A stretch of DNA of 64,000 nt from Taklimakanibacter deserti (GTDB lineage: Bacteria; Pseudomonadota; Alphaproteobacteria; Rhizobiales; Aestuariivirgaceae), in NCBI GenBank assembly GCA_003574785.1, contig QORU01000004.1, positions 310,001 through 374,000 of the forward strand, written 5' to 3'. The notes under the pieces are model-generated. The model made no database searches. It saw only the letters and a list, made by a program, of their open reading frames with translations, and was not told the DNA's origin. Numbering within the stretch: position 1 is the stretch's first letter; each line of letters starts with the position of its first letter. Below are positions 6,448 through 36,762 of the stretch, piece by piece. A program made the position numbers and the translations under genes.

Positions 6448-6460
6448 TTGAACCTATGTT

Positions 6461-7030: not shown

Positions 7031-7041
7031 GGTCTATTCCT

Positions 7042-9096: not shown

Positions 9097-9110
9097 GGAG
9101 AAGACTCCGA

Positions 9111-11939: not shown

Positions 11940-11959
11940 GATGCGTCTCCCTTTGAAAT

Positions 11960-14202: not shown

Positions 14203-14271
14203 CATCGTCTCCTTTGCGGATGTCGCCCAAAGACTGGGCACATCGAGATCATCCTGCATAACTTTATCGCA

Positions 14272-14309
14272 GTGCAACAATATTAGGCGACCTTGCACCG
14301 ACCGCGCAA
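14272..14309. promoter_or_regulatory. Possible NtrC enhancer half-sites upstream of urtA
   Basis: GTGCAA at 14272 and TTGCACC at 14293 match halves of the NtrC consensus (TTGCACC, spacer, GGTGCAA). The second also forms an imperfect TTGC...GCAA palindrome ending at 14309. They lie about 90-120 bases upstream of the expected sigma-54 start, a normal enhancer distance. The halves are not in the canonical order, so this is tentative. Confidence 0.35.
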
Positions 14310-14369
14310 ATGTCAAATCGCTCAATCACAGCAAGGTCTTGATGAATTTGCAGAAGCAGCCAGGCCAAC

Positions 14370-21261: not shown

Positions 21262-21530
21262 TGAACACCTTCTTTCATGAGGCCCGCTGTCCGCGGCTCG
21301 GGCCGGAAAGAAGATGTGGATCACATCGAAGATGGAGGCGGGTTCAACCCTTCACGCGGACCGTCGGTCGCCTGCACGACCGTGCCCAGACTAAAGGCAA
21401 GCAATAGCGAAAGTCAAACAGGACCTTCCCGCGTTCGCTATTCGCACGTGCTGCGGACAATCTGTTCATATGCTAAGGAAATGGCGGGGTGCCCGTGAAT
21501 CGTAGAAAAGAGATAGGGGAGAGGAACATC

Positions 21531-22652
21531 ATGCAGCGCATCAAATTCATCGACAGAATGGCTTCAGGAAAGCTCAGTCGCCGTGCCATGTTGCGTGGGG
21601 CCAGCGCCTTCGGCGTCGGCCTTGTCGTGCTGCCGCGCTTGCCGCAGGCCGCCGAAGTGCTCACTTGCCTCGAATGGGCGGGCTACGACGCGCCCGGTTA
21701 TTTCACGAGCTATGTCGGCAAGCATGGCGGCGCGCCGAATTTCTCGATCTTCTCGGGCGAGGAGGATGCGCTCGCCAAGGTGCTGGCCGGCTTCAAGGCG
21801 GATGTGATGCATCCGTGCAATTATTCGGTGAACCGCTTCGTCGATGCCAAGGTCGCGAGCGAGATCGACACCGCGAAGCTCTCGAACTGGAAAGACGTCT
21901 TTCCCGCTCTGCAGACGGCGAGCGGCGTGGTCATGGGCGGCAAGGTCGTCATGGCGCCTGCCGACTGGGGCAATTCCAGCATTGCCTACCGCACCGACCT
22001 CGTCGATGCCGATTTCGCGAAGAACGAAAGCTGGAGCATTTTCTACGACGACAAATACGCCGGCAAGGTATCCATGACCGACAACGAGGTCGCGATCGCC
22101 ATCGGCATGATGACGACCGGCGCCAAATATGAAGACGCAGCCCAGGTGACCGGCGAGACACTCCTCGCGGCGGCGAAGAATTGGGGCGTCAAGGCGGTGA
22201 AGAACAGCCGCTTCCTGTGGAACGATCCTTCCGAATTGCAACAGGCCTTGGCCTCGGGCGAGGTCGTCGCCGCCTATGCCTGGAACGACGTCTACAGGAA
22301 CGTCAAGCGCGAAGGTGTTCCCATTGCCTATGCCAAGCCCAAGGAAGGCTATTTCACCTGGTTCTGCGGCTTGACGCTGCTCAACACCGGCAAGGCCGAT
22401 CCGGCCCTTGCCTATGATTTCATCGATGCCTGGCTTTCGCCCGAAACCGGCAAGCTCTTGATCGACGAGTCGGGCTATGGCCATGCCAACATCAAATCCT
22501 TCGCGCTCGCCGACAAGCAGGCCGTCGCCGATATGGGGATCACCGATCCGGCCGAGCATATGAAGAACGGCACGCTCTTCATCCAGGTCAGCGATGCCGT
22601 GCAGAGCGAATGGAACAAGGCCTGGGGAGACGTCAAAGCGCTCAAGCAATAG
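21531..22652 (+). CDS. Extracellular solute-binding protein, spermidine/putrescine (PotD/PotF) type
   Basis: This is a 373-residue periplasmic binding protein with a twin-arginine signal (SRRAMLRGASAFG, ending about residue 40 at PQAAE). The mature part has the polyamine-binding layout LEWAGYDAPGYFTSYVGKHG, FKADVMHPCNYSV, WGNSSIAYRTD and VPIAYAKPKEGYFTWFCGL. The ATG at 21531 follows GGGGAGAGG. It is first of four genes. The true ligand could be another cation or amino-acid derivative. Confidence 0.88.
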   Translation: MQRIKFIDRMASGKLSRRAMLRGASAFGVGLVVLPRLPQAAEVLTCLEWAGYDAPGYFTSYVGKHGGAPNFSIFSGEEDALAKVLAGFKADVMHPCNYSVNRFVDAKVASEIDTAKLSNWKDVFPALQTASGVVMGGKVVMAPADWGNSSIAYRTDLVDADFAKNESWSIFYDDKYAGKVSMTDNEVAIAIGMMTTGAKYEDAAQVTGETLLAAAKNWGVKAVKNSRFLWNDPSELQQALASGEVVAAYAWNDVYRNVKREGVPIAYAKPKEGYFTWFCGLTLLNTGKADPALAYDFIDAWLSPETGKLLIDESGYGHANIKSFALADKQAVADMGITDPAEHMKNGTLFIQVSDAVQSEWNKAWGDVKALKQ

Positions 22653-23587
22653 AGCCCGCTTTGCCTCGCCTTCCTTCAACGGCGCCGCCCTGGCTCATCG
22701 GCTATGGCCTCCTGTCGCCCGCGATCGCCATCATGACCGTCATGATGGCGGCACCGCTTCTCGCCATGGTGGTCTTGAGCTTCTGGACCCAGACCGGCTT
22801 CGACATCGACCGCAGCTTCACGCTGGCGAACTACTGGACCCTGGTCGAACCCGCCTCGGAGCCCACTGTCTGGATGGGCGTACCCTTCCCGTTGGAATAT
22901 CCGGTTCCCGCCATCCTGCTGCTCAAATCCATCGTCATGTCGCTCATCATCACCATCGCCGTCATCGCGATGGCCTATCCGATGGCTTATTTCCTGGCCT
23001 TCCGCGTCACGCGCAGCAAGGCCTTGTGGCTCGTGCTCCTGACCATTCCCTTCTGGACGAGCTATCTCCTGCGGGTCTTCGCCTGGAAGATCGTGCTGGG
23101 CTTCAACGGCGCCATCAATTCGGGGCTGAAATCACTCGGCCTCATCGCCGAGCCCCTGTCCTTTCTCCTCTATAATCCGCTGGCGGTGATGATCACGCTT
23201 GTCCATGCCTGGGTCGCCTTCGCCGTCCTGCCGATTTACGTCTCGCTCGAGAAGATCGATCGTTCCCTGCTCGAGGCGGCGACCGATCTGGGCGACAGCC
23301 GGTGGCGGCGCTTCATGCGGGTCACGCTGCCGCTCTCGGCCCCTGGCGCTATTGGTGCCGCCCTTCTCGTCTTCATCCCTACTGTCGCCGACTATGTGAC
23401 GCCGACTCTCGTCGGCGGCCCCGGCGGCACGATGATCGGAAACCTCATCCAGGAGCTGTTCCTCAAGCAGAACAACGCGCCTCTGGGCGCCGCCGTCGCT
23501 TTATGCATGATGCTGACGGTCGGCGCGGCCGTGGCGCTTTTCCTGTGGCTCATAGGCTTCCGCCGGCTCAGATCGCGGACCGGGTGA
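22610..23587 (+). CDS. ABC transporter permease, PotB/PotH type
   Basis: This is a 325-residue permease of the polyamine family with about six membrane segments and an EAA loop (LLEAATDLGDSRWRRFMRVTLPLS), followed by VPTVADYVTPTLVGGPGG-like residues (FIPTVADYVTP). The start is uncertain: the ATG at 22610 overlaps the binding-protein gene by 43 bases, while a TTG at 22661 lies just after that gene's stop. Neither has a strong ribosome-binding site. Confidence 0.9.
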   Translation: MEQGLGRRQSAQAIEPALPRLPSTAPPWLIGYGLLSPAIAIMTVMMAAPLLAMVVLSFWTQTGFDIDRSFTLANYWTLVEPASEPTVWMGVPFPLEYPVPAILLLKSIVMSLIITIAVIAMAYPMAYFLAFRVTRSKALWLVLLTIPFWTSYLLRVFAWKIVLGFNGAINSGLKSLGLIAEPLSFLLYNPLAVMITLVHAWVAFAVLPIYVSLEKIDRSLLEAATDLGDSRWRRFMRVTLPLSAPGAIGAALLVFIPTVADYVTPTLVGGPGGTMIGNLIQELFLKQNNAPLGAAVALCMMLTVGAAVALFLWLIGFRRLRSRTG

Positions 23588-23591
23588 CTGC

Positions 23592-24395
23592 ATGAGATCC
23601 CGATCCCGCCTTCTCTTCTTCTATGCCGCTCTCTTCCTGCTGTTCCTCTATGGCCCGATATTGCTGGCGCCGTTATTCTCCTTCAATGACAGCACCTTCG
23701 CCACCTTCCCGCTCAAGGGCCTGACCTTCCGCCACTATGCCGAGATGGCCCGGAATACCGGCCTCCTCCAGGCCCTGCGCAACAGCCTGATCGTCGCCAC
23801 GGCAACGGCGGTCATCGCCACCGCCGTCAGCCTGCCTGCCGCCATCGCCCTGACGCGTTACAAGCTCCCCGGCGCCGGCGCCATCCTCACCGCCATGTCG
23901 GCGCCGCTCATCATTCCCTCGATCGTCTTCGGCGTGGCGCTTCTCATCATCATCCTGCGCTTCCTCGACCTGGAGCTCAGTTTGTGGACCATCGCCGCGA
24001 GCCATGTCTTCATCTGCATTCCCTTTGCCATGACGGTGCTGATGTCGAGGCTCGAGGGTTTTGACAAAAGCCTCGAGGAGGCATCCCGCGATCTCGGCGA
24101 AGATGCCTGGATGACGTTTTTGCGCGTGACGCTGCCGCTGGCCAAGTCCGGCATCGTTTCGAGCCTGCTGCTCTGCTTCGTCACCTCTTTCGATGAGTTC
24201 GTGCTCGCCTTCTTCCTGTCCGGTACCGAGCCGACTTTGCCGGTCTATCTGTTCGGCCAATTGCGCTTTCCCAACAAGCTCCCCGGCATGCTGGCGCTCG
24301 GATCCACTATCCTCTTCTTCTCGGGCCTCATCGTGATACTGGCCGAGATCCTGCGCCGCCGCGGCGTCCAGTCCAATTCCCCGGGAGACATCTGA
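23592..24395 (+). CDS. ABC transporter permease, PotC/PotI type
   Basis: This is a 267-residue permease with six predicted membrane segments, [19 protein letters not shown] after the first, and the EAA loop [20 protein letters not shown]. It starts 4 bases after the partner permease and ends one base before the ATPase gene. It forms the heterodimeric channel with the preceding protein. Confidence 0.92.
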
Positions 24396-24396
24396 C

Positions 24397-25488
24397 ATGG
24401 CTGAGAGTGGCGGCGATGTGATCGATATCCGTGGCGTCTCCAAGCATTTCGGCACGGTGGCGGCCGTCGACGGCGTCTCCTTCTCGATCAAGCGCGGTGA
24501 GTTCTTCTCTCTCCTCGGCCCATCGGGCTGCGGCAAGACCACTCTCCTGCGCATGCTGGCGGGCTTCGAGCATCCGACCCTAGGCGAGATCCTCATCGAC
24601 AGCCTGCCGATGACCCATGTGCCGGCTAACAAGCGCCCCACCAACATGGTGTTCCAGAGCTACGCCATCTTTCCGCATCTGAATGTCGAGGAGAATGTCG
24701 GCTATGGCCTGAGGAACCGTAGGATGAGCAAGGACGAGATCCGCGCCAGCGTTGCCGCGGCCCTCGAACTGGTGAAGCTCGGTGGATTGGGCAAGCGCGG
24801 CGCGCATCAGCTTTCCGGCGGCCAGCGCCAGCGCGTGGCGCTCGCCCGCGCCTTGGTCTGCCGGCCCAAGGTGCTGCTGCTCGATGAACCCTTGGGCGCC
24901 CTCGACAAGAAGCTGCGCGAGGAGATGCAGCTCGAACTGCGCCAGTTGCAGCGCAATGTCGGCATCACTTTCGTATTCGTGACGCATGACCAGGAGGAGG
25001 CGCTGACGCTGTCGGACCGCATCGCCGTCATGTCGTCCGGCAAGGTATTGCAGATCGCACGCTCGAACGATCTTTATGAGAACCCGAATTGCCGCGAGGT
25101 GGCCGAGTTCATCGGCAACATGAACCTGTTCGAAGGCAAGGTCGCTTCCTTCTCGCAAGGCAAGGCCGCGATCGACACGACCGCCGGCCGGTTCGTGGCC
25201 CCGACGGCGCAGCCGCTCACGACGGGCGTGCCGGTCTATCTCGCCGTGCGCCCTGAGAAGCTGATGCTCTCGGTCGAAAAGCCGGCAGCGGATGTCAATG
25301 CGGTCAAAGGCCGGATCATGGCCGAGACCTATCTCGGCGCTCGCCGCCAGTTTCTCGTGAAGCTCGACAGCCAGGCGAAACCGGTCACAGTTTCGCAGCA
25401 GATCTCGGGAGCTGAATCGCATGTCCCGGCGAGCGGCGAAGTCTGGGTTGCCTGGTCTCCGCCGCTCGGCCGGCTTCTGACGGAATAG
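24397..25488 (+). CDS. ABC transporter ATP-binding protein, PotA/PotG type
   Basis: This is a 363-residue ATPase: Walker [21 protein letters not shown], signature [15 protein letters not shown], Walker [20 protein letters not shown], switch [15 protein letters not shown], and a C-terminal TOBE domain (about 265-360) typical of polyamine importers. It converges on choX with one base between the stops. Confidence 0.93.
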
Positions 25489-25489
25489 C

Positions 25490-26428
25490 TTAGAGGCCGA
25501 GCTTCGTTTTGACCGCCGCTGCGGCGTCACCGCCATCGAAAGTCGTAACCCCGGCAAGCCAGGGCGTGACGGCATCGGGATGCTTCTTCAGCCACTCGCT
25601 CGCCGCCGCCTTGGGATCCTTGCCTTCATCGAGGATGGCGCCCATCATCTCGTTCTCCATATCGAGCGTGAAGCGCAGATTGGCGGCGAGCTTCGCCGCA
25701 TTGGGACATTCCGTCCCATAGCCGCTGCGGATATTGGTGAGCACCTCGGCGCCGCCGTAATTGGGACCGAAATAGGCGTCACCGCCCGAGAGATAGTCGA
25801 TCTTGAAGCGGGTGTTCATCGGATGCGGCGCCCAGCCCAGGAACACGATCCACTTCTCCGCTTTGACCGCGCGCTCCACCTCGGCCAGCATCCCCTGCTC
25901 GGACGATTCGACCACCTCCCAACCCTTCAGGCCGAAATCGCCTTTGCCGATCATGTCGAGGATCATCCGGTTGCCGTTGTTGCCGGGCTCGATGCCATAG
26001 ATCTTCTTCTCGAAGCGGTCGGGGAATTTCTGCAGATCGGCGAAATCCTTGACCCCGGCATCGGCGACATATTTCGGCACCGCGAAAGTATATTTGGCGC
26101 CGGTCAGATTGGTCGCCACGACCTCGATCGACTTGTCGTCGAGATAGGGCTTGCGGTCGGCTTCCATGCTGGGCTGCCAGTCGCCCAGATAGACATCGAC
26201 ATCCTTGTTCTTCATGCTCGCATAGGTGACCGGGATCGACAGCACCTGCGTCTCCGGACTGTAGCCCAGCGCTTCCAGGATGACCGAGGCGGTGGCGGTG
26301 GTCGCGGTGATGTCGGTCCAGCCGACATCGGAGAAGCGCACCTTCTTGCAGGTTTCGCTCTCGGCGGCCAGCGCATGGCTGGCGCAGAGGAGGCTCAATC
26401 CGGCGCAGGCAAATAGAAGTCTCTGCAT
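25490..26428 (-). CDS. choX: Choline ABC transporter substrate-binding protein ChoX (orphan)
   Basis: This is a 312-residue periplasmic protein with a Sec signal peptide (residues 1-21, ending SHALA). It matches remembered rhizobial ChoX phrases: CKKVRFSDVGWTDITATTAT, VDVYLGDWQPSMEAD, KIYGIEPGNNGNRMI, VESSEQGMLAEVERA and FFGPNYGG-like YFGPNYGGAEVLTN. ChoX binds choline with high affinity for the ChoWV permease/ATPase. No choW or choV is in the window. It is the last gene of a seven-gene minus-strand run from acxA. Confidence 0.88.
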   Translation of the reverse strand: MQRLLFACAGLSLLCASHALAAESETCKKVRFSDVGWTDITATTATASVILEALGYSPETQVLSIPVTYASMKNKDVDVYLGDWQPSMEADRKPYLDDKSIEVVATNLTGAKYTFAVPKYVADAGVKDFADLQKFPDRFEKKIYGIEPGNNGNRMILDMIGKGDFGLKGWEVVESSEQGMLAEVERAVKAEKWIVFLGWAPHPMNTRFKIDYLSGGDAYFGPNYGGAEVLTNIRSGYGTECPNAAKLAANLRFTLDMENEMMGAILDEGKDPKAAASEWLKKHPDAVTPWLAGVTTFDGGDAAAAVKTKLGL

Positions 26429-26452
26429 GTTTCTCTCCCTAGTTGTTGTTTG

Positions 26453-27280
26453 CTACCAGAGTGCACCCCCGGTGATCTGGATATTCTCCGCGGTAATGCC
26501 GCGCGCTGCATCGCTGCACAGGAAGGCGGCCAGCGCCGCGATCTCCTGCGGCTGGATGATCCGCTGCTGCGGATTCTGTTGGGCGATATCGGCCATTGCC
26601 TCTTCCAGCGTCCGTCCCTTGCCCTCGCGCGCGACGACCTGGGCCACATTGCGGCGCATGAGCTCGGTCTCGACCCAGGTCGGGCTGATCATCACGCAAG
26701 CGACGCCATGCGGCGCCCCTTCCAGCGCCACGCAGCGCGTGAGGCCGAGCAGGCCGGACTTGGAGGCGCAATAAGCCGGATTGTCCTTCCAGCCGACCGT
26801 TGCCGCGGTCGAGCCGATGTTGATGATGCGGCCCCAATGGCGCCCGATCATGCCCGGCAGGAGCTTGCGCGTCATGCGGAAGGCGCCATTGAGATTGGTG
26901 TCGATGATCTTGAGCCACAGCTCGTCCGAATGGCCCGAGACCGGCTGCTCGGCAGTCGTGCCCGCGGCATTCACCAGTATGTCCGCTGGCCCGCAGGCTT
27001 TGTCGGCGGCGGCGATGAACTCATCGATCACCTTAAGGTCACGCACATCGAGATGACCGGCGAAGACCTTGGCGCCAAAATCCTGCAGCGTCTCGCGGAC
27101 CGCGGTGATCTCTTGCGGATCCGGATAGGCCGCGGCATCGCCCCGCCGCCCGCTCGCTTCACTGACATAGGAGCCGACGGCGACATGGGCCCCGGCCTCC
27201 GCCAAAGCCTTGGCGATTTCGAGCCCCTGTCCCGTCAGCCCGCCGGTGATGACGGCGCTGCGCCCCTGCAGCGGCTTCAT
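26453..27280 (-). CDS. SDR family oxidoreductase
   Basis: This is a classical SDR of 275 residues: TGGLTGQG cofactor loop near residue 12, NAAGTTAE, catalytic INIGSTAA and YCASK, and the tail ENIQITGGALW. An insertion near residues 40-60 (SEASGRRGDAAAYPDP) lengthens the region after strand 2, which usually decides cofactor preference. It sits between a binding-protein gene and choX, 7 and 24 bases apart. It may oxidise an alcohol freed by the sulfatase in this cluster; that is inference. Confidence 0.87.
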   Translation of the reverse strand: MKPLQGRSAVITGGLTGQGLEIAKALAEAGAHVAVGSYVSEASGRRGDAAAYPDPQEITAVRETLQDFGAKVFAGHLDVRDLKVIDEFIAAADKACGPADILVNAAGTTAEQPVSGHSDELWLKIIDTNLNGAFRMTRKLLPGMIGRHWGRIINIGSTAATVGWKDNPAYCASKSGLLGLTRCVALEGAPHGVACVMISPTWVETELMRRNVAQVVAREGKGRTLEEAMADIAQQNPQQRIIQPQEIAALAAFLCSDAARGITAENIQITGGALW

Positions 27281-27287
27281 GCCGTCC

Positions 27288-28868
27288 TCATGCGAACCAC
27301 CAGCGTTGCGCGATCTTCATGCCGTCGACATCGTAATTCGGCGCGACCGGGCCATGCGCGAGCTTGTCGGAATGGACATTGACCAGGTTGTTGAACATGA
27401 GAACGAGCGCGCCGCCATCCTCGGCCACGAGGTTCTGCAGTTCGGCATACATCCCCGCGCGCTTGTTGGCGTCGAGTTCCGAGCGCGCCGCCGCCAGCAT
27501 CTTGTCGAAACCCGCATTCGACCAGAAGGTGTCGTTCCAGGCCGCACCCGTGACATAGGCCGTCGTGAACATGGCATCGGCCGTCGTGCGGCCGTTCCAA
27601 TAGCAGAAGCACCAGGGCTTCTTCAGCCAGACATTGGACCAGTAGCCGTCATTGGGCTCACGCACCACGTTGATGTCGATGCCGGCCTTGGCCGCCTGCT
27701 CCTTCATCAGCAGCGCCGAATCGACGGCGCCGGCAAAGGCGGCATCGGCGGTCGAGAGGTCGACCGCCAGGGATTGCAGCCCTGCCGCCTTCAAGTGGAA
27801 TTTAGCCTTGTCCGGATCGTAGGCATGCTGCTCCTTCGGATCCGCATGGAAGGGCACGCCCTTGGCGAGCGGGTTGTCGTTGCCGATGGTCCCGTGGCCG
27901 AGCAGGATCTTGTTCACCAGCTCCTGGCGGTCGACGGCATATTTGAGCGCCAGCCGCACATTCTTGTCGTTGAAGGGCGCCACGGTGCAGTTCATCGGCG
28001 CCGTGTAATGCGCGAATCCGGCGATCTCCGAGACCACGACGCCCGGATTTCTCTGCAGCATGGGCAGCGTCTTGAGGTCGGCGCGGTCGGCGAAATCGAT
28101 CTCGCCGGTGATGAGCGCGTTCATGCGCGCCGCGACATCGATGATGGACAGGACCTCGATCTCGTCGAAATAAGTCTGCCCGTGATAATTGGCGTAGCGC
28201 TTGCCTTCAAAGCGCGCGCCGGGCTCGTAGCGCGATTTCACATAAGGTCCGGTGCCGATGCCGGACTCCCAGTCGACCTTGCCGTCGGCGGCCGGCATGA
28301 TCGGGATATGGAAGTCATAGGTCACGAAGGGAAAGTCGGCATTGCCGTTGGACAGCGTGAACACCACCGTGTCCTTGCCATCGGCCTTCACCTCGGTGAG
28401 ATCGGCCAGCAGGGGCTTCGCCGCCGACTTGGAGTCGGCGCCCAGATGATATTGGAACGACGCGACCACGTCATTGGCATCGACGCTCTTGCCATTGTGG
28501 AACTCCACACCTTTGCGCAGCTTGAACACCCACTGTTTCGCATCGGGTGAGGATTCGAAGCTCTCGGCGAGATCGGGAACGATCGTGCCGTCCGCCGTGA
28601 CGTCGGTCAGGCTCGAGCGCAAGGCGCCCCAGGCGACGACCTGGTTGAACGTATCGGGAATGCTGCCGGGATCGAGCGTGTCATTGGTGGAACCGCTGCC
28701 GAGCCCCATGCGGAACCGCCCGCCCTTCTTGGGCTCGGCCCGCGCCATGGCGGTGAACAGGCCCTCGGCCGCGGCCACTGTGATGCCGGCGGCGATAGCC
28801 TGCTGGATGAATTCGCGCCGCGACAGGCGGCGTGTTCTGGTGAGCGTCTTCAACCGGTCAAGCGTCAT
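27288..28868 (-). CDS. ABC transporter substrate-binding protein, peptide/nickel (SBP_bac_5) family
   Basis: This is a 526-residue periplasmic protein with a twin-arginine motif (LSRREFIQQ) and signal ending MARAE. Family phrases include FRMGLGSGSTNDTLDPGS, WVFKLRKGVEFHNGKSVDAND and VRLALKYAVDRQELVNKIL. The ATG at 28868 follows AGGAGG. No permease or ATPase gene accompanies it, so it must use a transporter encoded elsewhere. Despite the family name, members bind many organic solutes. Confidence 0.9.
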   Translation of the reverse strand: MTLDRLKTLTRTRRLSRREFIQQAIAAGITVAAAEGLFTAMARAEPKKGGRFRMGLGSGSTNDTLDPGSIPDTFNQVVAWGALRSSLTDVTADGTIVPDLAESFESSPDAKQWVFKLRKGVEFHNGKSVDANDVVASFQYHLGADSKSAAKPLLADLTEVKADGKDTVVFTLSNGNADFPFVTYDFHIPIMPAADGKVDWESGIGTGPYVKSRYEPGARFEGKRYANYHGQTYFDEIEVLSIIDVAARMNALITGEIDFADRADLKTLPMLQRNPGVVVSEIAGFAHYTAPMNCTVAPFNDKNVRLALKYAVDRQELVNKILLGHGTIGNDNPLAKGVPFHADPKEQHAYDPDKAKFHLKAAGLQSLAVDLSTADAAFAGAVDSALLMKEQAAKAGIDINVVREPNDGYWSNVWLKKPWCFCYWNGRTTADAMFTTAYVTGAAWNDTFWSNAGFDKMLAAARSELDANKRAGMYAELQNLVAEDGGALVLMFNNLVNVHSDKLAHGPVAPNYDVDGMKIAQRWWFA

Positions 28869-28896
28869 CTGTTTCCTCCTGTTGTCTGTCGTTGAC

Positions 28897-30414
28897 TCAA
28901 TCGCGCAGTAAATCTCTCTGTTCGGCTTCATGATAGGACCGCGAGCCCCGGTAATAGCGCTTGGAGGCGTCCTGCCAGGGCTGGTAGTCCCAGGGCGTGA
29001 CCTCGCCGACTTTAAGCGCCTGATAGACCAGGCGCCGCCGGCGCTGGCTGCGGACGATCTCGTCCTTGAGCTTGCCCAGATCCCAGCGCCGCGCCAGTTC
29101 GGCGCGGAAATCGGCGATCACCGGCGCATAGGCCGGATCCGCCGCAAGATCGGCGATCTCGTCGGGATCCTGCTCCATGTCGAAGAGCTGCGGCGGATCA
29201 TGCTCGACGAAAGTGAACTTGTAGCGGCCCTTGCGGATCAGCACATAAGGGGCCGCGACCCCTTCCGACATGAGCTCGCTCACGGCGACGCGGTCCGCAT
29301 CGTCCGCCGTGAACAGCGGCAGCAGGCTCTGGCCGTCGGGCGGGTCGGGATAGCCCGGCCAATTGTCGCCGGCGGCGATCTCGACCAGGGTCGGCAGGAT
29401 GTCGACCAGCGAGCAATTGGCCTTGATGCGGTGCGCCTTGCTGATGCCAGGCCCCGCCATGATCAGCGGCACGCGCGCCGACCAGTCATAGAAGCTCATC
29501 TTGTACCAGAGGCCGCGCTCGCCGATCATGTCGCCGTGATCGGCGCAGAAGATCACGATCGTGTCGTCCAAGAGCTTCGAGCGCCGCAGGGCGTCGATCA
29601 CCTCGCCGATCCGCTCGTCGACATAGGAGATGCTGCCATAATAGGCATGCCGCGCGGTGCGCACGTCCTCCTCGGTGATGCCGATATCGCCGCGGTCATA
29701 TTGCTCATAGAGGCGCCGGCTGTGCGGATCGCGCTTCTCCGGCGGAATGAAGGGCACGCGCGGCAGGTCGATCTCGTCATGGCGATAGAGGTCGTAGAAG
29801 CGCTTCGGCGTGACATAGGGATCATGCGGATGGGTGAAGGAGCTCACCAGCAGGAAGGGCCGCTTGTCGGGATCGCGCGCCAGGTCGAAAATCCAGCGCG
29901 AGGCGCTATAGGCGACTTCCTCGTCATAATCCTGCTGCAGCGAGCGTTCGGCTATCCCTGAATTCTTGACATTCTTCATGTCGTGGAACCAGTCCATGGT
30001 GCGCCATGGATCGTCCCAATCCGCCGTCCAGTTGAAATCCGAGGGACAGATGTCGGTGGTGACGCGCTCCTCGAAGCCGTGCAGCTGGTCCGGCCCGATA
30101 AAATGCATCTTGCCGGAAAGGCAGGTGCGATAGCCGAGAAGGCGCAGATAATGCGCGAAGGTCGGGATGTCCGAAGGCAGCTGCGCGGCATTGTCCCAGG
30201 CCCCGATGGTGGAGCAGAGCCGCCCGGTCATGAAGGCAAGCCGCGCCGGCGCGCAGAGCGGGAAGTTCGAATAGAAATTCTCGAACACCGTCCCGCGTCC
30301 GGCGATCCCGTCGATATGGGGAGATTTGACCAAAGAGTGACCATAGGCCGCGAGCGCCCGCGCGCTCATCTGATCGACCATCAGGATGAGGATATTGGGC
30401 CGTGCCTTGGTCAT
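28897..30414 (-). CDS. betC: Sulfatase of the choline-sulfatase (BetC) type
   Basis: This is a 505-residue arylsulfatase-fold hydrolase. The active-site motif is C54-A-P-A-R58, where Cys54 would mature to formylglycine. Metal-site phrases are ILILMVDQM and CADHGDMIGERGLWYKMSFYD; the phrase SGKMHFIGPDQLHGFEERVT is close to BetC as I remember it. BetC splits choline-O-sulfate into choline and sulfate in the cytoplasm. The gene has AAGGAG before its ATG and lies 14 bases after acxC. The presence of choX in the same run supports choline sulfate, but other sulfate esters are possible. Confidence 0.8.
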   Translation of the reverse strand: MTKARPNILILMVDQMSARALAAYGHSLVKSPHIDGIAGRGTVFENFYSNFPLCAPARLAFMTGRLCSTIGAWDNAAQLPSDIPTFAHYLRLLGYRTCLSGKMHFIGPDQLHGFEERVTTDICPSDFNWTADWDDPWRTMDWFHDMKNVKNSGIAERSLQQDYDEEVAYSASRWIFDLARDPDKRPFLLVSSFTHPHDPYVTPKRFYDLYRHDEIDLPRVPFIPPEKRDPHSRRLYEQYDRGDIGITEEDVRTARHAYYGSISYVDERIGEVIDALRRSKLLDDTIVIFCADHGDMIGERGLWYKMSFYDWSARVPLIMAGPGISKAHRIKANCSLVDILPTLVEIAAGDNWPGYPDPPDGQSLLPLFTADDADRVAVSELMSEGVAAPYVLIRKGRYKFTFVEHDPPQLFDMEQDPDEIADLAADPAYAPVIADFRAELARRWDLGKLKDEIVRSQRRRRLVYQALKVGEVTPWDYQPWQDASKRYYRGSRSYHEAEQRDLLRD

Positions 30415-30428
30415 GCGCTCTCCTTGTT

Positions 30429-30923
30429 CTAGGGGTCCTTAAGCGGTTTCTTCAGCCAGTCGCGATAGAAGCCCTCGAGATCGGGCTCGAAATCATGCAC
30501 GATCGGATAGCCCGGCGCCGCCGCCTCGACCTCATGCAAAGTGCCGCAGCTCGGACAGATGAATTCGCGGATCTCCATCCATTGGGGATCGGGAATGTCG
30601 CTGTTCGGATAGATCTCGGCCAGCGCTGTCTCGCTGTTGCGGACATGGATATGCGCTGCAAGCTTCCAATTCTTGCGGTAGTCGCCGAAGCAATGGCCGC
30701 ATTCGCATTTCGTCACCCGTTCCTCGCCGCTCTGGCAGATGAACAGATGGTCACTGATCGGCAGCAGGATGGGGTCCTTCCAGCGCACACGGTCCTGCAA
30801 CACCGCCACATAGGTGAAGAAGCGGGTGTCGTCCTTATAGGCGCTCATGATCCGCTTGGTCTGGCGCCAGGGCAGCGTGCCGGCCACGAGATCGCTGATG
30901 ACGTCCTTGCTGTATGAGGTCAT
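30429..30923 (-). CDS. acxC: Acetone carboxylase gamma subunit
   Basis: This is a 164-residue protein with two zinc-knuckle-like CxxC pairs: CECGHC around residue 73 and CPSCGT around residue 121. Phrases CECGHCFGDYRKNWKLAAH, AEIYPNSDIPDPQWMEIREF and PGYPIVHDFEPDLEGFY match my memory of AcxC. This subunit distinguishes acetone carboxylases from simple hydantoinases and oxoprolinases. It starts 4 bases after the alpha-subunit gene. Confidence 0.87.
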   Translation of the reverse strand: MTSYSKDVISDLVAGTLPWRQTKRIMSAYKDDTRFFTYVAVLQDRVRWKDPILLPISDHLFICQSGEERVTKCECGHCFGDYRKNWKLAAHIHVRNSETALAEIYPNSDIPDPQWMEIREFICPSCGTLHEVEAAAPGYPIVHDFEPDLEGFYRDWLKKPLKDP

Positions 30924-30927
30924 GGGC

Positions 30928-33123
30928 CTACTCCGCCGCCAGGGTGAATTGGGGATCGAGCTGCCAGAAGTCGCGGAACTCCCTGGCGAAGCGCGGTGAG
31001 AGCTTCATGGCGCTGGCATACATCTTGCGCACTTCCGGCGCGAAATCCTGATCCGCTACGCGCTTGCGCTCAGCAGCGATCCACGCCGTCACCGGCACCG
31101 CCTTCTCGAGCCGGGCCTTGCGCATCTGGGCGCGGCGCTCATTCGTCGCCTTGAGATCGGCGACCGGATAGCCGTCATCGTCGTCTTTCAGGATGATGCC
31201 GAAGACCTGCTCCGCCGCCTCGCGCGTGAGGAAGCCGTTCTCGACGTCCGATGCGGTCTTGACCGGATCGCGCTCCAGCACATCGCCATAGCCGCCGCCG
31301 CCATTATAGGAATGGGTGAAGATATCGCCCGATTTGTGCGGAGCGGTGATATAGGGTCCTTCGACGATCTCATGCTTGCCGCCGATGCGCTTTTCGAGCT
31401 CGGACTTATGCGGATCGGTGCCCGGCGCATGCGCCAGCGGCAGCCTTTTCTCGGCCAGCTCCTGGATATTGGAATTCCGCACCACGCGGTGCTTCTGGCA
31501 GGTGGGTGCGGGATAGCCGCCGCACATGCCGGCATTATCGAAGACGCGCGAGGAATGTTCCGAGGTGACGAGGCGCAGATGCGCCGTCTTGTTGATGAGC
31601 CAGGTCGAGACGAAGGAGCATCCGCCGCGATATTTGCCGGCGCCGCCCGAATTGGCAACGATGGAACGGCCGATATAGACCATCGGCATGTTCTGTTCCC
31701 AGATCTCGATATTGCCCATGTCGGATTCGGGATTCCAGCCGACATAGGCGGTATCGAGCCCGTCCTTGATGGCAAGCGCGCCCGAGCCCGCCGCCGCGCA
31801 TTCGAAATGGGCCATGCCGAAGGGCGTGCCATACTGGCTCTGACCGCCCATCTCGATCATCGGGCTGTTGACCTGGCCGACGAACACTTCCTCGATGAAG
31901 CCGCGGGCCAGGAAGCCGCGCGACAAGAGGCGCTGGAACACGCCATAGGCGGGCAGCAGCAGCGCCCAGGAGGTCGCGGTCGCCACCATTTCATTGTCGG
32001 GATTGGTCCAGGTGCCCTCGGGCAGCTTGAGCTCGGTCGCCATCCAGGCACCGTCATTCACCAGGCCCTCGAAGTTCATATGCTGGGTCAAGGTCACGAA
32101 CATGCCGCCATCCATGCCGGCGGGCGTGCAGTTCATCGAATGGTAGCCCCAGGGCTGGGTGCCCTCGAAATCCATGGTGATCTTGCCGTCGGTCGTGATC
32201 TCCATCTCGATCGGCATGTTGTAGAGCCAGTTCGGATCGCCGAGCGGCTGGAAGCCCGGCTTGCCCTCGGTGACATGGCCGTAGAAAGTATGGCCGCGAT
32301 ATTTGCCGGGCACGGTGAGCTGGCGCGTGCGGGCAAGCTGGGCGCGGCGCCCCTCTTCGATGAACTCCTTCGACACCCGCATCCAGTAATCGAGTCCGAC
32401 TTCCTCGATCAGGCTTTTGACACTTTCGCGCATATCGATGCAGGACGCGACCTTGGCCTTCTCGTCCAGCACCCAATAGATCGGCATGCGCAGATTGCGC
32501 TCGCAGCGGATGATGTAGTCGCGGCGCAGTTCGTCATTCTCGCCGACCTTCTCGGCGCAGACGAAGAGCCCCTCGGTGAAGCGCTCCTGGGCCAGGCACA
32601 CATCGCCGCCCGGCGTAATGCCGCCCGCTTCGAGCTCATGGCAGACGGCGCCTGCCCAGCCAACGAGCTTGCCTTCATGGAAGATCGGCACGACGTCCAT
32701 GACGTCCGGCACCTGCACCGTACCGATGAAGGCATCGTTATTGGCGAAGATGTCGCCGTCGCGGATGCCGGGATTGTCCTCATAGCCGTTGCGGATCATC
32801 CATTTGATGAAGCGGCTCATGGTGTGGACATGGACCATGATGCCGTTGGAAAGCGCTATGGCATCGCCTTCCGGCGTATAGATCGCGACCACCATCTCGC
32901 CCACTTCGCGCACGCCGGGCGATGCCGAGATGCGCCGCGCCATCTCGCGCGCCGAGACGCAGAAAGCCCGGAGCTTGGTGTGCAGCGTCTCGAATTTGAG
33001 CGGGTCGCGGGCGCGCAGTTCGAGCTTGGTGATGCCGTCGTAGCAGCCCGTCTCCTCCATCAGCCGCTCGGAGTCGATGAGCCGTTCACGCAGGCGCGAA
33101 GGAGAAGCTGGCCGGTTCAACAT
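30928..33123 (-). CDS. acxB: Acetone carboxylase alpha subunit (hydantoinase B family)
   Basis: This is a 731-residue HyuB-type subunit. The N-terminal part has SNGIMVHVHTMSRFIKWMI and GDIFANNDAFIGTVQVPDV; the centre has HSMNCTPAGMDGGMF; the C-terminal third has YNGGGGYGDVLERDP, the usual glycine-rich HyuB motif. The ATG at 33123 has GGAGAG upstream. In known complexes it forms an alpha2-beta2-gamma2 enzyme that carboxylates acetone to acetoacetate using ATP and bicarbonate. It starts 10 bases after acxA. Confidence 0.88.
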   Translation of the reverse strand: MLNRPASPSRLRERLIDSERLMEETGCYDGITKLELRARDPLKFETLHTKLRAFCVSAREMARRISASPGVREVGEMVVAIYTPEGDAIALSNGIMVHVHTMSRFIKWMIRNGYEDNPGIRDGDIFANNDAFIGTVQVPDVMDVVPIFHEGKLVGWAGAVCHELEAGGITPGGDVCLAQERFTEGLFVCAEKVGENDELRRDYIIRCERNLRMPIYWVLDEKAKVASCIDMRESVKSLIEEVGLDYWMRVSKEFIEEGRRAQLARTRQLTVPGKYRGHTFYGHVTEGKPGFQPLGDPNWLYNMPIEMEITTDGKITMDFEGTQPWGYHSMNCTPAGMDGGMFVTLTQHMNFEGLVNDGAWMATELKLPEGTWTNPDNEMVATATSWALLLPAYGVFQRLLSRGFLARGFIEEVFVGQVNSPMIEMGGQSQYGTPFGMAHFECAAAGSGALAIKDGLDTAYVGWNPESDMGNIEIWEQNMPMVYIGRSIVANSGGAGKYRGGCSFVSTWLINKTAHLRLVTSEHSSRVFDNAGMCGGYPAPTCQKHRVVRNSNIQELAEKRLPLAHAPGTDPHKSELEKRIGGKHEIVEGPYITAPHKSGDIFTHSYNGGGGYGDVLERDPVKTASDVENGFLTREAAEQVFGIILKDDDDGYPVADLKATNERRAQMRKARLEKAVPVTAWIAAERKRVADQDFAPEVRKMYASAMKLSPRFAREFRDFWQLDPQFTLAAE

Positions 33124-33133
33124 GGGTCTCTCC

Positions 33134-35263
33134 TTAAGCGTGGCTGTAGTGAAGAAGGGTCCACTCATCGATCGTCACCCGATCCTTTGGATGGACGACG
33201 AGCGTGGTAGCGGGATGTTCGATGATGGCTGGGCCGATGACCTCATGGCCCGGCTGCAGAAGGTCCATCTCATAGAGATCGGCTTTGTGCCAGCGCCCGC
33301 CGATATAGGCTTCGCGCACGCCCTTGTGGGCGGATGCCGGATCGGACTTGCCCATCGGCCGCTTGACCAGCACCGGCTTCACCTTGTCGGCGGTCGCGAT
33401 CAGGCCGAGCTCGGTGATCGAGAAGCCGGCTTCGCCATAGCGCGAGACGCGGTGATTGACCTTGGCATAGACGGTTTCGAATTCGGCGATCACGCGGCGC
33501 ATGTCGTCGGCCGATGTGACCGCGGCCAAAGGCGCCATCACCTCGACATCCTCGAGCTGGCCGGTATAGCGCATCATGAGGAAGGGCGTGGTCGTGATCT
33601 TCGCGCGCGCATGACCGTCGGCGATCATTTCCTCGACCGCGGCCTTGGTGAGATCGGCCCAGACCGTGCTCACCCGGGCGCCGAAGGCTTCGAGCGCCGC
33701 ATCGTCCGCTTTCGCCTGAATGTCGATCTGGGTCGAGACCGAGTGGCGGCGCATGTAATCGGCCGTGGTGCAGCCGAAGGCCGAGAAGGCGGCGGCGAAC
33801 TGGAAGGTGATGATGTCGCGGAAGCCGATGCCGCGCGAGCAGCCGGCGAGGTGCAAGGGGCCCGAGCCGCCATAGGAGAGAAGCGTGAATTCGGAAGGAT
33901 GGATGCCCTGCCCCGAGATCACCCGGCGCAGCGCGTTGTTGGCGTCGGTCTCGAGCATGTTGATCATGCCCTCGGCCGCCTCTTCGAGGCCGACGCCAAG
34001 TATGTCGGCGCATTTCTGCTTGAAGGCCTGGCGCGCCTTCTCGACCTTGAGCTTGACCTTGCCGCCGAGGAAGTAATCCGGATTGAGGCGGCCCAGTATG
34101 GCGTCGCAATCGGCGATGGTGGGCTCGGTGCCACCCTTGTCGAAGCAGATGGGCCCCGGATCGGAGCCGGCGCTTTCGGGACCGAGGCTTACTTTCCGGG
34201 TCAGGGGATCGACTTTGAGGATCATGCCGGCACCGGCGCCGATCGTGTCGAGATGGAGCGTCGGCACATTGAGCTTGAAGCGGTCCATCAGGGGCTCGTT
34301 CTCGATCCGCGTCTGGCCGCGGGTGATGACGCCCATGTCGAAGGAAGTGCCGCCCATGTCGGAGCAGATGAGCGAGTCGTTGCCGATGAGCTTGCCGACA
34401 TAGGCGGCCCCCAATATCCCGCCGATGGGGCCTGAGATCATCGTCTCATGCAGCCGCGGATGGTTGATCGAGGTCAGGCCGCCGAAGGACAGCAAGGTCT
34501 GCACGCCGTATTTGAAGCCATATTTGCGCGAGGCGTCCTCGATGCCCTTGAGCTGGCGGCGTCCGCGCGAGGTGGCATAGGCCTCGATCAGCACGCTGTT
34601 GAGCCGCGACTGCTCGCGGATGACCGGGCGCACCTGGTGGCTGGCATAGACCAGGATGTCGGCTTTGGCTTTGGCGATCTCGTCGCGGCAGATCTCGGCG
34701 ATGCGCCTCTCATGCGCCGGATTGACATGCGAGAAGATGGTCATGATGCAGATCGCCTCGACCTTGTCGCGGATCAGCGCTTGCGCGGCCTCGACCACCT
34801 CATGCTCATAGAGGGGAAGGACGACATCGCCGAACTGGTCGATGCGCTCGGTGACGCCATGGGTGCGGCGCCGCGGCACCAGGGCGTCGGGATGGTGATG
34901 GGTTACGGCATGGAGCCGGTCGGCATAGGAATAGTCGGCCCAGGCCTGAAGCCCGCGGCCCATCAGGATCATGTCCTCGAGGCCCTTGGTGGTGATGAGG
35001 CCGAGCTTGCGTCCCGTGCGCGACAGGAGCGTGTTGATCATGCCGGTGCCCGAATAGAGGACGACATTCACGCCCGAGAACAGGTCGTCGAGCGAGATGC
35101 CCCAGGCCTCGGCCGCATCCGCCGCTGAGGCGATGAAGCCTTCCGCCTCGTCGCGCGGTGTCGTCGCCGACTTGCCGATCTTGAAATGTCCGTGCTGGTC
35201 GACAAGAATGGTATCGGTCATGGTGCCCCCGGCATCGATGCCGATCACGATGGGATTTTCCAT
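33134..35263 (-). CDS. acxA: Acetone carboxylase beta subunit (hydantoinase A family)
   Basis: This is a 709-residue HyuA-type ATP-binding subunit. The N-terminal motif is GIDAGGTMTDTILVDQHG. Later come YSGTGMINTLLSRTGRK, LVPRRRTHGVTERID, SDMGGTSFDMGVITRG and LLSYGGSGPLHLAGCSRGIG, all in the order I recall for AcxA. The ATG at 35263 has GGAG nine bases upstream. It is first in the seven-gene run and divergent from a LuxR-type regulator. Confidence 0.88.
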   Translation of the reverse strand: MENPIVIGIDAGGTMTDTILVDQHGHFKIGKSATTPRDEAEGFIASAADAAEAWGISLDDLFSGVNVVLYSGTGMINTLLSRTGRKLGLITTKGLEDMILMGRGLQAWADYSYADRLHAVTHHHPDALVPRRRTHGVTERIDQFGDVVLPLYEHEVVEAAQALIRDKVEAICIMTIFSHVNPAHERRIAEICRDEIAKAKADILVYASHQVRPVIREQSRLNSVLIEAYATSRGRRQLKGIEDASRKYGFKYGVQTLLSFGGLTSINHPRLHETMISGPIGGILGAAYVGKLIGNDSLICSDMGGTSFDMGVITRGQTRIENEPLMDRFKLNVPTLHLDTIGAGAGMILKVDPLTRKVSLGPESAGSDPGPICFDKGGTEPTIADCDAILGRLNPDYFLGGKVKLKVEKARQAFKQKCADILGVGLEEAAEGMINMLETDANNALRRVISGQGIHPSEFTLLSYGGSGPLHLAGCSRGIGFRDIITFQFAAAFSAFGCTTADYMRRHSVSTQIDIQAKADDAALEAFGARVSTVWADLTKAAVEEMIADGHARAKITTTPFLMMRYTGQLEDVEVMAPLAAVTSADDMRRVIAEFETVYAKVNHRVSRYGEAGFSITELGLIATADKVKPVLVKRPMGKSDPASAHKGVREAYIGGRWHKADLYEMDLLQPGHEVIGPAIIEHPATTLVVHPKDRVTIDEWTLLHYSHA

Positions 35264-35328
35264 GGCCAGACACTCCATTGGTCTTGATTTCGGGCGTCAG
35301 GCTATTGGCCGAGGGGGAGAAGCGCCAT

Positions 35329-36153
35329 ATGCCAAAAGACACAATGACGGCCGGGCCGAGCGAGGCTCGAATGGATGACGTTATGGCCGACTTCTGGCAA
35401 AGCCTGGCGGAGGCGATCGCGGCGACCGGCAGCGCGGAGCATGTCGATCGCCTGATCGATGTCATCGGCTCGGCCGTTGCCCATGACCTCATCACCGTCA
35501 CGCGCTATTCGGCGACGAGCAAGCCCGAATTCGTCAAGCATCGGCGCTTTTCCGACGAAATGGTCCGCCGCTATCTCGAAAGCTACTATGTCTACGACCC
35601 CTTCTATGCCCGCTGGCGCGAACGGCGGCAGCTCGGCATCGTGCCGCTCAAGCATCTGGCAGACGAGGATCTGAAGCGCGGCAAATATATTGCCGAATTC
35701 CTGGCCCAGTCGGAGATCTGCGATGAGGTCGGCATCCTGCTCGAGGACGGCGGCGACTGGTGCCTGGGGATTTTCCTCGACCGTGCACATCAGCCCTTCA
35801 AGGATGCCGAGATCGCCCTCCTGGTGCAGCGGCTCCCCGTCTTCGCCGCTCTGCATGCCCTGGACATCAAATCGCGCCAACCGGATTTCCGGCGGACCAC
35901 GGCGCCTTTGGGCAAAGGTGGCGCGCCGCAGCGCGAACCGCGTATTCCGGAGGGTCTGTGGCCCGAGCTTTCCGCACGCGAGAAGGAGCTCGCCGAGCTC
36001 ATCTTGAGCGGGCATCCCACCGCGACGATCGCCGAGCGCCTCGGCATCACTGTCGGCACCGTCAAAAACCACCGAAGGCGCATCTATGAGAAGCTCGACA
36101 TCACCACCGAGCGCGAGATGTTCCTGCAGTTCTTCCAGTATCAGGCCGGATAG
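35329..36153 (+). CDS. LuxR-family transcriptional regulator
   Basis: This is a 274-residue protein from the ATG at 35329 (GGGAG upstream). The N-terminal 170 residues have an alpha-beta sensor-like layout with YYVYDPFYARWRERR, resembling autoinducer-binding/GAF-like domains of LuxR-type solos. The C-terminal HTH reads LSAREKELAELILSGHPTAT then IAERLGITVGTVKNHRRRIY. It is divergent from acxA across 65 bases, so it probably controls the acx run. No luxI gene is present; the ligand is unknown. Confidence 0.86.
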   Translation: MPKDTMTAGPSEARMDDVMADFWQSLAEAIAATGSAEHVDRLIDVIGSAVAHDLITVTRYSATSKPEFVKHRRFSDEMVRRYLESYYVYDPFYARWRERRQLGIVPLKHLADEDLKRGKYIAEFLAQSEICDEVGILLEDGGDWCLGIFLDRAHQPFKDAEIALLVQRLPVFAALHALDIKSRQPDFRRTTAPLGKGGAPQREPRIPEGLWPELSAREKELAELILSGHPTATIAERLGITVGTVKNHRRRIYEKLDITTEREMFLQFFQYQAG

Positions 36154-36156
36154 GGT

Positions 36157-36762
36157 TCATGTCTCAGTGCGGCGGTCATGCGCGTGCCCGGCGAGCGCTC
36201 CGGAGAGGCGCCTCGTCACCTCGACCATCAGGTCGGGCGTATTGCGATCGAGCCCATAGACCCATTCCGGAAAATTGAGCGGCTTCTGCACGGCCCAGAT
36301 TTCGTCATGCCGGTCGGGAGACAGGATTTTCGCCGGATCGCCGACGGCCACCCAGCCGATCGGCACCATGGCGCCGGCCTCGAGTCGCGTCCGCAAATGC
36401 ACGATGGCATGCACGCGTATCTCCGATCCTGCCCCCACTTGTGCGCCGTGGAAGATCGCAGCCCCGGTCGCGACGAAGACTTGGGCACCGAGCACCGCGC
36501 CCGTGACATGGGCATTGGGGCCGATCAAGCAATGATCGCCGATGCTGCAAGGGTGGCGCGGGCTCGCCCTCACCACCGCATTCTCCATGACGATGCAGTA
36601 CTGGCCGATCGTGATGGTGCCTCCGCCCTCCCCGACGATGCGGGCGCCATGCATCACACGTGCGCCCGGCCCGACCGTTACATCGCCACAGATCGTCGCG
36701 TCGGGCGCGACCCAGGCCGACGGGTCGACTTGCGGAGATTTGCCGGCATGTTCGATCAACAT
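36157..36762 (-). CDS. Gamma-carbonic-anhydrase-like hexapeptide-repeat protein
   Basis: This is a 201-residue left-handed beta-helix protein. Hexapeptide turns run through residues 10-130 (PSAWVAPDATICGDVTVGPG, IGDHCLIGPNAHVTGAVLG), with His residues at positions resembling the Zn ligands of gamma-class carbonic anhydrases. GWVAVGDPAKIL is also typical. The ATG is preceded by AAAGGAAACG. It converges with the LuxR-type gene (3 bases apart). Enzymatic activity cannot be read from sequence. Confidence 0.8.
   Translation of the reverse strand: MLIEHAGKSPQVDPSAWVAPDATICGDVTVGPGARVMHGARIVGEGGGTITIGQYCIVMENAVVRASPRHPCSIGDHCLIGPNAHVTGAVLGAQVFVATGAAIFHGAQVGAGSEIRVHAIVHLRTRLEAGAMVPIGWVAVGDPAKILSPDRHDEIWAVQKPLNFPEWVYGLDRNTPDLMVEVTRRLSGALAGHAHDRRTET

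Follow-up and report, generated by a model that had tools for sequence, protein, structure and literature searches.

A seven-gene run around an acetone-carboxylase-like enzyme in Taklimakanibacter deserti: a candidate route for a quaternary-ammonium compound

Why should genes for an acetone carboxylase lie beside a gene for a choline sulfatase? The question is raised by a run of seven genes in a stretch of 64,000 nucleotides from Taklimakanibacter deserti (contig QORU01000004.1, positions 310,001 to 374,000), which as a whole is called the window below. From 35263 down to 25490, all on the minus strand, the run comprises acxA, acxB and acxC, a choline-sulfatase-type gene, a gene for a solute-binding protein of the SBP_bac_5 family, a gene for a short-chain dehydrogenase/reductase (SDR) and choX (Table 1). 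We propose that it may encode a pathway for breaking down a quaternary-ammonium compound, centred on enzymes that resemble acetone carboxylase but form a clade of their own, and that the substrate of this carboxylase would be a trimethylammonium methyl ketone and not acetone.

With starts supported by homologues (acxB at 33123, the SBP_bac_5 gene at 28868) the six intergenic gaps measured 10, 4, 14, 28, 7 and 24 bp; taking the first start of each open reading frame (ORF) instead gives a 35-bp overlap at two junctions. A consensus scan found no terminator-like site on the operon strand inside the run and a single promoter-like site, at 28474, and the counts of both kinds of site did not exceed chance level. 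Judged from the sequence, co-transcription of the seven genes is likely. A first-pass annotation had described seven same-strand genes with gaps of 4-28 bp as an operon-like layout, and with the homologue-supported starts this description holds. The gene identities it had given were likewise confirmed, by Pfam, TIGR03417, TIGR03414 and homology to proteins of Xanthobacter autotrophicus.

The carboxylase and its relatives

A one-genome-per-species scan yielded 102 places encoding a relative of AcxB. The best 80 of these 102, together with three plasmid loci, are the 83 loci to which the counts below refer, and partner genes were sought in them by tblastn with chosen query proteins and floors on identity and coverage. 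Controls came from a search with PF08882 in 289 Alphaproteobacteria and 299 Bacillota, which matched 20 and 8 genomes, respectively. Two of these 28 matches were Gln-type centres themselves (the type is defined below), and no other Gln-type genome was among the strong matches. The 12 genomes with a strong match outside the family (>100 bits) served as controls, in the form of 14 regions, and 14 genomes with weak matches were left out.

At first sight the three adjacent genes look like those of an acetone carboxylase. AcxA, AcxB and AcxC matched the X. autotrophicus subunits over nearly their full length (600, 556 and 178 bits, respectively), and the zinc cysteines of the gamma subunit (C74/C76/C124/C127) were present. 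Two further marks of that enzyme, the metal site E89/H150/D153/H175 and a beta subunit lacking the motif GxxPGP, were not found. An excerpt of PMC5543143 gives alpha-subunit His150, Asp153, His175 and Glu89 as the manganese ligands of the X. autotrophicus enzyme. Window AcxB has E91/Q152/D155/H177 at these positions (numbered from the ORF start at 33168). Glutamine replaced the ligand His150 in all 83 loci (the Glu position was unreadable in L066), which come from genera of Alpha- and Gammaproteobacteria, Bacillota and Actinomycetota; we refer to them as Gln-type. His occupied this position in 15 of 15 control sequences and Gln in none. Nine of these 15 were of the E/H/D/H type and six of the D/H/D/H type, L133 being read in two pieces.

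A maximum-likelihood tree of AcxB (quick search, SH-aLRT support) was computed from 39 rows including the window and 25 of the 83 loci, without L124 and L133. One branch with support 99 parted 26 Gln rows from 13 His rows; the program issued a long-branch warning for the controls. Of the sequences in this tree, that of Pseudaminobacter salicylatoxidans was closest to window AcxB (89%). The motif GxxPGP, which an excerpt of PMC8453981 names as the adenosine site and as a caprolactamase-family motif, occurred in the ATP-binding (beta) subunit of all 82 readable Gln-type loci and in none of the eight readable E/H/D/H control loci. It was also found in all six D/H/D/H control loci, which resemble acetophenone carboxylase and have two acxA-like genes each. 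The window enzyme did not qualify as an acetophenone carboxylase (Apc) because the run has one HyuA-type gene and all Apc models scored far below cut-off.

The first-pass annotation had taken AcxABC for an ordinary acetone carboxylase. Because of the changed metal ligand, the different ATP-site motif GxxPGP and the separate clade, the Gln-type enzyme is, by its sequence features, not an acetone carboxylase in the strict sense. The gamma subunit is regarded as particular to the carboxylases, and since its zinc cysteines were kept in 82 of 82 readable loci the enzyme probably works like an acetone carboxylase. In databases the family stands as 5-oxoprolinase/hydantoinase or as acetone carboxylase.

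Could the Gln-type enzyme be no carboxylase at all, but instead hydrolyse a quaternary-ammonium lactam or ester at the expense of ATP, or work without a metal? An excerpt of PMC8453981 describes full conservation of the corresponding His, Asp and His across carboxylases, hydantoinases and oxoprolinases, and reports that caprolactamase loses its activity when alanine is placed in the metal site. That such a His should be Gln in 83 of 83 loci, next to a motif of the caprolactamase family, would suit a hydrolase. The retained zinc cysteines, the retained E, D and second H of the metal site, and the presence of GxxPGP in the six acetophenone-carboxylase-like control loci as well all speak for a carboxylase, and we consider a hydrolase or a non-metal enzyme improbable.

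Gene neighbourhood and binding pockets

The core of acxABC and SDR recurred in Rhizobiales, Rhodobacterales and one gammaproteobacterial metagenome-assembled genome (MAG), and acxABC alone was also found in Bacillota and Actinomycetota. The nearest annotated relatives, on plasmids of Sinorhizobium meliloti and Shinella, had the order LuxR gene (divergent), acxA, acxB, acxC, SDR, choX, with neither a sulfatase nor an SBP_bac_5 gene between them. By megablast, at least 80% of the five-gene run was present in 56 of 57 matching plasmid records (54 from Sinorhizobium, two from Shinella). A divergent LuxR relative adjoined acxA in most alphaproteobacterial acx loci.

An SDR of the c2 type (at least 50% identity by tblastn) was present in 73 of the 83 loci. 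Beside it lay a second SDR in 24 loci, for which the best NCBIfam model was (R)-specific alcohol dehydrogenase (289 bits against a cut-off of 400). In L034, L038 and L083 two SDRs were followed soon by the contig end, and none of the queried partners was found in four loci (L069, L071, L072 and L082). acxA of L083 (7899-8926) and acxB of L133 (3498-5540) were read in several pieces and are possibly disrupted genes or sequence errors.

Synteny in other genomes is borne out: two Labrys genomes and one gammaproteobacterial MAG combine sulfatase, SDR and acxABC in one place. These are the only three of the 83 loci with a sulfatase, besides the window, and its place as a core part is not supported. 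The same applies to the SBP_bac_5 gene as a member of a conserved unit: by tblastn the acx runs of the 83 loci contained no such gene, and among the loci seen it occurred only in the window. The window is thus best described as a conserved core (acxABC and SDR) with two local additions.

Carriers of quaternary-ammonium compounds were detected near the carboxylase in 43 of the 83 loci by tblastn, an unselected figure; some loci are truncated by the end of a contig, and a carrier that resembles none of the five queries would escape detection. The 43 comprised 14 loci with ChoX, 25 with an OpuAC-type binding protein (two of them with BCCT), two with BCCT alone and two with a permease resembling that for trimethylamine N-oxide (TMAO). 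ChoX was found mostly in Rhizobiaceae and Phyllobacteriaceae, OpuAC with ABC genes in Mesorhizobium and Rhodobacteraceae, and BCCT in Bacillota. These unrelated carrier families have the trimethylammonium substrate class in common.

A Pfam search of 20 Gln-type genomes gave OpuAC or BCCT within 10 kb of acxC in 13 (G001, G003, G004, G005, G008, G009, G010, G011, G012, G014, G016, G017 and G020), where about 1.06 would be expected from gene number and genome size; the 20 were hand-picked across lineages after the neighbourhoods had been seen and are not a random sample, and the carrier-less Mesorhizobium group is represented among them by one genome, G002. The corresponding P of about 2e-13 assumes independent, unselected genomes, an assumption that does not hold here. 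OpuAC and BCCT were absent within 10 kb in G002, G006, G007, G013, G015 (a short contig) and two Saccharopolyspora genomes, which had instead a permease with TMAO permease as its best model (176 bits against a cut-off of 690). Near the carboxylases of the 12 control genomes neither family was found (Pfam, plus tblastn on the fetched regions), with about 0.1 expected. As a separate observation, a Rieske oxygenase lay near the acx genes in L067, L068 and L070 (Rhodobacteraceae MAGs) and, from 20328, in L056; for that of L070 the nearest NCBIfam model was glycine betaine monooxygenase GbcA (148 bits against a cut-off of 670).

These neighbourhoods bear on the alternative kept by the first-pass annotation, here read as an ordinary acetone or 2-propanol pathway that shares the operon with choline-sulfate genes by chance. 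Such a pathway would suit the near-full-length homology of all three subunits, an SDR that could be a 2-propanol dehydrogenase, and the 30 loci with no quaternary-ammonium carrier found nearby. It does not fit the separate clade with its altered metal ligand and ATP motif, nor the recurrence of carriers beside this clade in Pseudomonadota and Bacillota, but beside the carboxylases of none of the 12 control genomes; we attach little probability to it. In the annotation's own form, choline-O-sulfate use plus an unrelated ketone route, the alternative became less likely, the same carboxylase standing beside carriers in Pseudomonadota, Bacillota and, as a weaker case, Actinomycetota. Choline-O-sulfate use combined with plain acetone carboxylation is disfavoured because it is the carboxylase clade, not the sulfatase, that carries the quaternary-ammonium association.

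With the choline-sulfatase equivalog TIGR03417 the window sulfatase scored 689 bits, well above the cut-off of 433. In a tree with 15 other choline-sulfatase-type sequences, mostly from the same 13 genomes, the acx-linked sulfatases of the window, two Labrys genomes and one gammaproteobacterium formed one group (bootstrap 92, SH-aLRT 93, below the program's star). Each Labrys genome had one acx-linked and one other choline-sulfatase-type sequence. Excerpts of PMC9063841 and PMC5870055 describe a clamp, Trp129/His145/Glu386, that holds the quaternary ammonium. The window sulfatase, like the other acx-linked ones, keeps this clamp as well as catalytic C54, N75, K102, H104, H201 and K309 (numbering of the S. 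meliloti choline sulfatase, SmCS). Common to the four acx-linked sulfatases were Y123C, Y144F, N495G, N498S, L499Y and the loss of one residue at 142/143; this loss, and Gly495 in one case, also occurred in some other choline-sulfatase-type sequences. Three of the other choline-site residues of a choline sulfatase, Y123, Y144 and L499, are C, F and Y in these four. None of 346 other genomes of the family of Pseudaminobacter had the window sulfatase at E <= 1e-180, a threshold which the Labrys and gammaproteobacterial relatives pass. We regard the sulfatase as a separate, accessory clade and not as the core of the pathway; a pocket for the choline head, perhaps with space for more than choline itself, would fit beta-methylcholine sulfate.

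The SDR was nearest to 3-hydroxybutyrate dehydrogenases (186 bits against a cut-off of 307) and reached the cut-off of none of the 25 NCBIfam models shown. At the positions which we take to bind the carboxylate in 3-hydroxybutyrate dehydrogenase (Q94, H144 and K152) it has T, A and N, unlike that enzyme. The carboxylate-binding residues were absent in 14 of 14 aligned SDR members, and WVRT of 3-hydroxybutyrate dehydrogenase was WVET in 13 members and WVNT in one. Such a pattern would be expected for an uncharged or cationic alcohol. ChoX passed TIGR03414 (482 bits against a cut-off of 379), and the six residues that form the choline pocket in the S. meliloti protein, the aromatic box W43/W90/Y119/W205 plus D45 and N156, are all present in it. 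Its partners choW and choV were not found in the run, the nearest transporter being a PotA-type system on the other strand. The SBP_bac_5 protein carries the motif SRREFIQ, which we take to be a twin-arginine (Tat) type signal. From the neighbours and the pockets taken together, a quaternary-ammonium compound as substrate class appears fairly well supported, and the choline-derivative substrate of the first-pass annotation gains support with it.

Proposed route and fate of its product

How might these genes work together? The compound would be taken up by ChoX, perhaps also by the SBP_bac_5 protein. In the window a sulfate ester, where met, would be desulfated by the choline-sulfatase-type enzyme. 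The SDR would oxidise a secondary alcohol, most likely beta-methylcholine, which animals form from carnitine, to trimethylaminoacetone. AcxABC with ATP and bicarbonate would then carboxylate the methyl group, giving 4-trimethylammonio-3-oxobutanoate, in other words 3-dehydrocarnitine. This known intermediate of carnitine breakdown could be cleaved by a beta-keto acid cleavage enzyme (BKACE) to betainyl-CoA, and hence yield glycine betaine. Trimethylaminoacetone that arises by decarboxylation would be recovered in this way as well. The earlier scheme of alcohol, ketone and beta-keto acid survives here as a consistent order, without the sulfatase and the SBP_bac_5 protein as conserved parts. Our choice of substrate follows from its chemical fit with the carnitine route, and the product and the direction in which the SDR works are inferred as well.

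An excerpt of PMC12482172 reports trimethylaminoacetone from Citrobacter grown on carnitine and mentions that a Pseudomonas extract converted it to glycine betaine; the excerpt names no enzyme for this step. An excerpt of PMC5979481 mentions the decarboxylation of carnitine to trimethylaminoacetone. BKACE (PF05853) was found in 20 of 20 Gln-type genomes and on the S. meliloti plasmid record, and in one of 14 well-known reference genomes. In the Bacillota order it was present in 23 of 150 background genomes (one of them a test genome) as against all four Gln-type Bacillota. In a stretch of about 11.6 kb in Lentibacillus sp. CBA3610 (L073, 1137-12745), one strand carries genes for BKACE, a TetR protein, an SDR and an OpuAC protein, and the opposite strand BCCT and acxABC. 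Each of the four Bacillota genomes also has, elsewhere, a BKACE gene after which come genes for a carnitine-dehydrogenase-like and a thioesterase-like protein (of the four thioesterase-like proteins, one was compared with the models). These sets resemble the known carnitine-to-glycine-betaine set as given in the excerpt of PMC12482172.

The substrate might also be some other quaternary-ammonium ketone, with a longer or differently substituted trimethylammonium part, or a dimethylsulfonium analogue. The transporter association and the pocket residues reveal the head group only, and with the acx-linked sulfatase pocket remodelled (Y123C, Y144F, L499Y) the alcohol may exceed choline in size. We nevertheless think another ketone unlikely, although less so than the readings dismissed above: trimethylaminoacetone is the simplest such ketone, and its carboxylation product would be an intermediate for the BKACE/carnitine-dehydrogenase-like sets of the Bacillota.

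Several observations, besides the hand-picking of the 20 genomes, weigh against the route to glycine betaine. Thirty of the 83 loci, mainly from Mesorhizobium, have acxABC and SDR only, and none of the five carrier queries matched there; OpuAC and BCCT were not found nearby in Labrys and Brevibacterium, nor an SDR near the acx genes of L075. The labels TMAO permease and GbcA rest on scores far below the cut-offs. With Gln in place of a His ligand that caprolactamase needs for activity, the enzyme could catalyse a different reaction. In Alphaproteobacteria BKACE was present in 81 of 190 background genomes (one of them a test genome) as against 12 of 12 in G001-G012 (one of which is assigned only as Proteobacteria). 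It does not discriminate there, because five of the six His-type control genomes of the alphaproteobacterial draw also carry it (G047, G053, G062, G182 and G189, but not G117). In the Bacillota genome G424 a BKACE-like gene (near 10382 in L132) directly adjoins a His-type, that is acetone-type, carboxylase, which suggests that BKACE may also serve other ketone carboxylations. As a specific marker BKACE is weakened by all three findings, and its presence in controls makes the route slightly less probable. The BKACE of the Lentibacillus acx cluster scored below every NCBIfam cut-off, and that near the acx genes of L056 is disfavoured as a 3-dehydrocarnitine enzyme, since it passes the model for 3,5-dioxohexanoate cleavage. 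For the carnitine-dehydrogenase-like proteins of the Bacillota the best model was L-carnitine dehydrogenase, at 368-387 bits against a cut-off of 414.

With these points counted, the whole route from a beta-methylcholine-like alcohol or sulfate through trimethylaminoacetone and 3-dehydrocarnitine to glycine betaine is put forward as a tentative proposal, with slightly less than even confidence. Somewhat more doubtful still is the general claim that biotin-free carboxylases crossing phyla fix CO2 onto trimethylaminoacetone with Gln in place of the His ligand, opening a way from beta-methylcholine and its sulfate to glycine betaine. No report of an enzyme carboxylating trimethylaminoacetone was found among the open-licence papers listed in the literature searches, which is weak evidence of novelty. 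If the proposal were true, a family widespread in Mesorhizobium and Sinorhizobium, including S. meliloti 1021 with its acxABC copy on pSymB (NC_003078.1, 420004-426678), would gain a substrate, carnitine and betaine metabolism a new CO2-fixing entry, and the onward metabolism of trimethylaminoacetone an enzyme. The clade also presents a natural change from His to Gln in a metal site, one whose residues a related enzyme needs for activity, and the role of the ligand is thereby directly testable.

Other window genes and known systems

Table 1. Features of the seven-gene run and its immediate surroundings in the window
Feature	Position	Strand	Basis
Convergent ABC transporter: SBP_bac_8, two permeases, PotA-type ATPase	21489..25488	+	family searches
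choX paralogue, choline-type binding protein	25490..26428	-	TIGR03414
SDR (c2 family), predicted secondary-alcohol dehydrogenase	26453..27280	-	Pfam
SBP_bac_5 solute-binding protein, Tat-type signal	27288..28868	-	Pfam
Choline-sulfatase-type class I sulfatase, acx-linked group	28897..30414	-	TIGR03417
acxC, gamma subunit, four zinc cysteines 73, 75, 123, 126	30429..30923	-	Pfam PF08882
acxB, HyuB-like metal-site (alpha) subunit	30928..33123	-	homology
acxA, HyuA-like nucleotide-binding (beta) subunit, with GxxPGP	33134..35263	-	homology
LuxR-type (GerE) regulator, divergent, beyond acxA	35371..36153	+	Pfam GerE
Hexapeptide-repeat protein, convergent with LuxR gene	36157-36762	-	nearest gamma carbonic anhydrases, 62 bits against a cut-off of 250

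The start of the LuxR-type gene is provisional: its ORF begins at 35278, and the ATG at 35371 gives 260 aa, near the ORF size of most relatives. The ATPase of the convergent PotA-type transporter fell into the same loose cluster as the ATPases beside OpuAC-type acx loci, which hints weakly at this system as a possible partner of the run. The hexapeptide-repeat gene was considered as a supplier of bicarbonate, a role we do not claim, no matching neighbour cluster having been found in other acx loci.

Further away, a gene at 11960-12703 (minus strand) matched Pfam DMSP_lyase (PF16867, 185 bits), which is unexpected in a probable relative of rhizobia, and could encode an enzyme with a substrate other than dimethylsulfoniopropionate. 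Three SDR genes surround it (11178-11981, 12552-13406 and 13423-14325). The window also holds a potassium-uptake operon of kdpD, a P-type ATPase gene and kdpA (3775-10799, minus strand) and an ORF with ankyrin repeats and a glyoxalase-type domain (19999-21324, minus strand).

Among known systems, AcxABC of X. autotrophicus (PDB 5M45, 5SVB, 5SVC) has the same three subunits, gamma-subunit zinc cysteines and three of the four metal-site residues. The window enzyme differs from it in Gln for His150, GxxPGP, its separate clade, its quaternary-ammonium neighbours and the SDR in the operon. Acetophenone carboxylase (PDB 5L9W) is a ketone carboxylase of the same superfamily, and the Apc-like controls also have GxxPGP; unlike the window enzyme, it has two HyuA-type subunits and an epsilon subunit, and the metal set D/H/D/H according to an excerpt of PMC8453981. 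The carnitine-to-glycine-betaine pathway (carnitine dehydrogenase, BKACE and betainyl-CoA thioesterase) would have 3-dehydrocarnitine in common with the proposed route, whose entry, however, would be a methyl ketone by carboxylation and not carnitine by oxidation.

In the epoxypropane/coenzyme M route, 2-hydroxypropyl-coenzyme M dehydrogenases, which are SDRs, are followed by 2-ketopropyl-coenzyme M carboxylase. There too SDRs oxidise a charged 2-propanol derivative and the ketone is then carboxylated, and 24 of the 83 acx loci likewise have two SDRs, but the carboxylase is unrelated and the handle is a sulfonate, not trimethylammonium. Finally, the window sulfatase shares its catalytic residues and quaternary-ammonium clamp with S. 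meliloti BetC (SmCS; PDB 6FNY, 7PTH), from which its group is set apart by the five substitutions and the 142/143 loss given above and by its linkage to acx genes.

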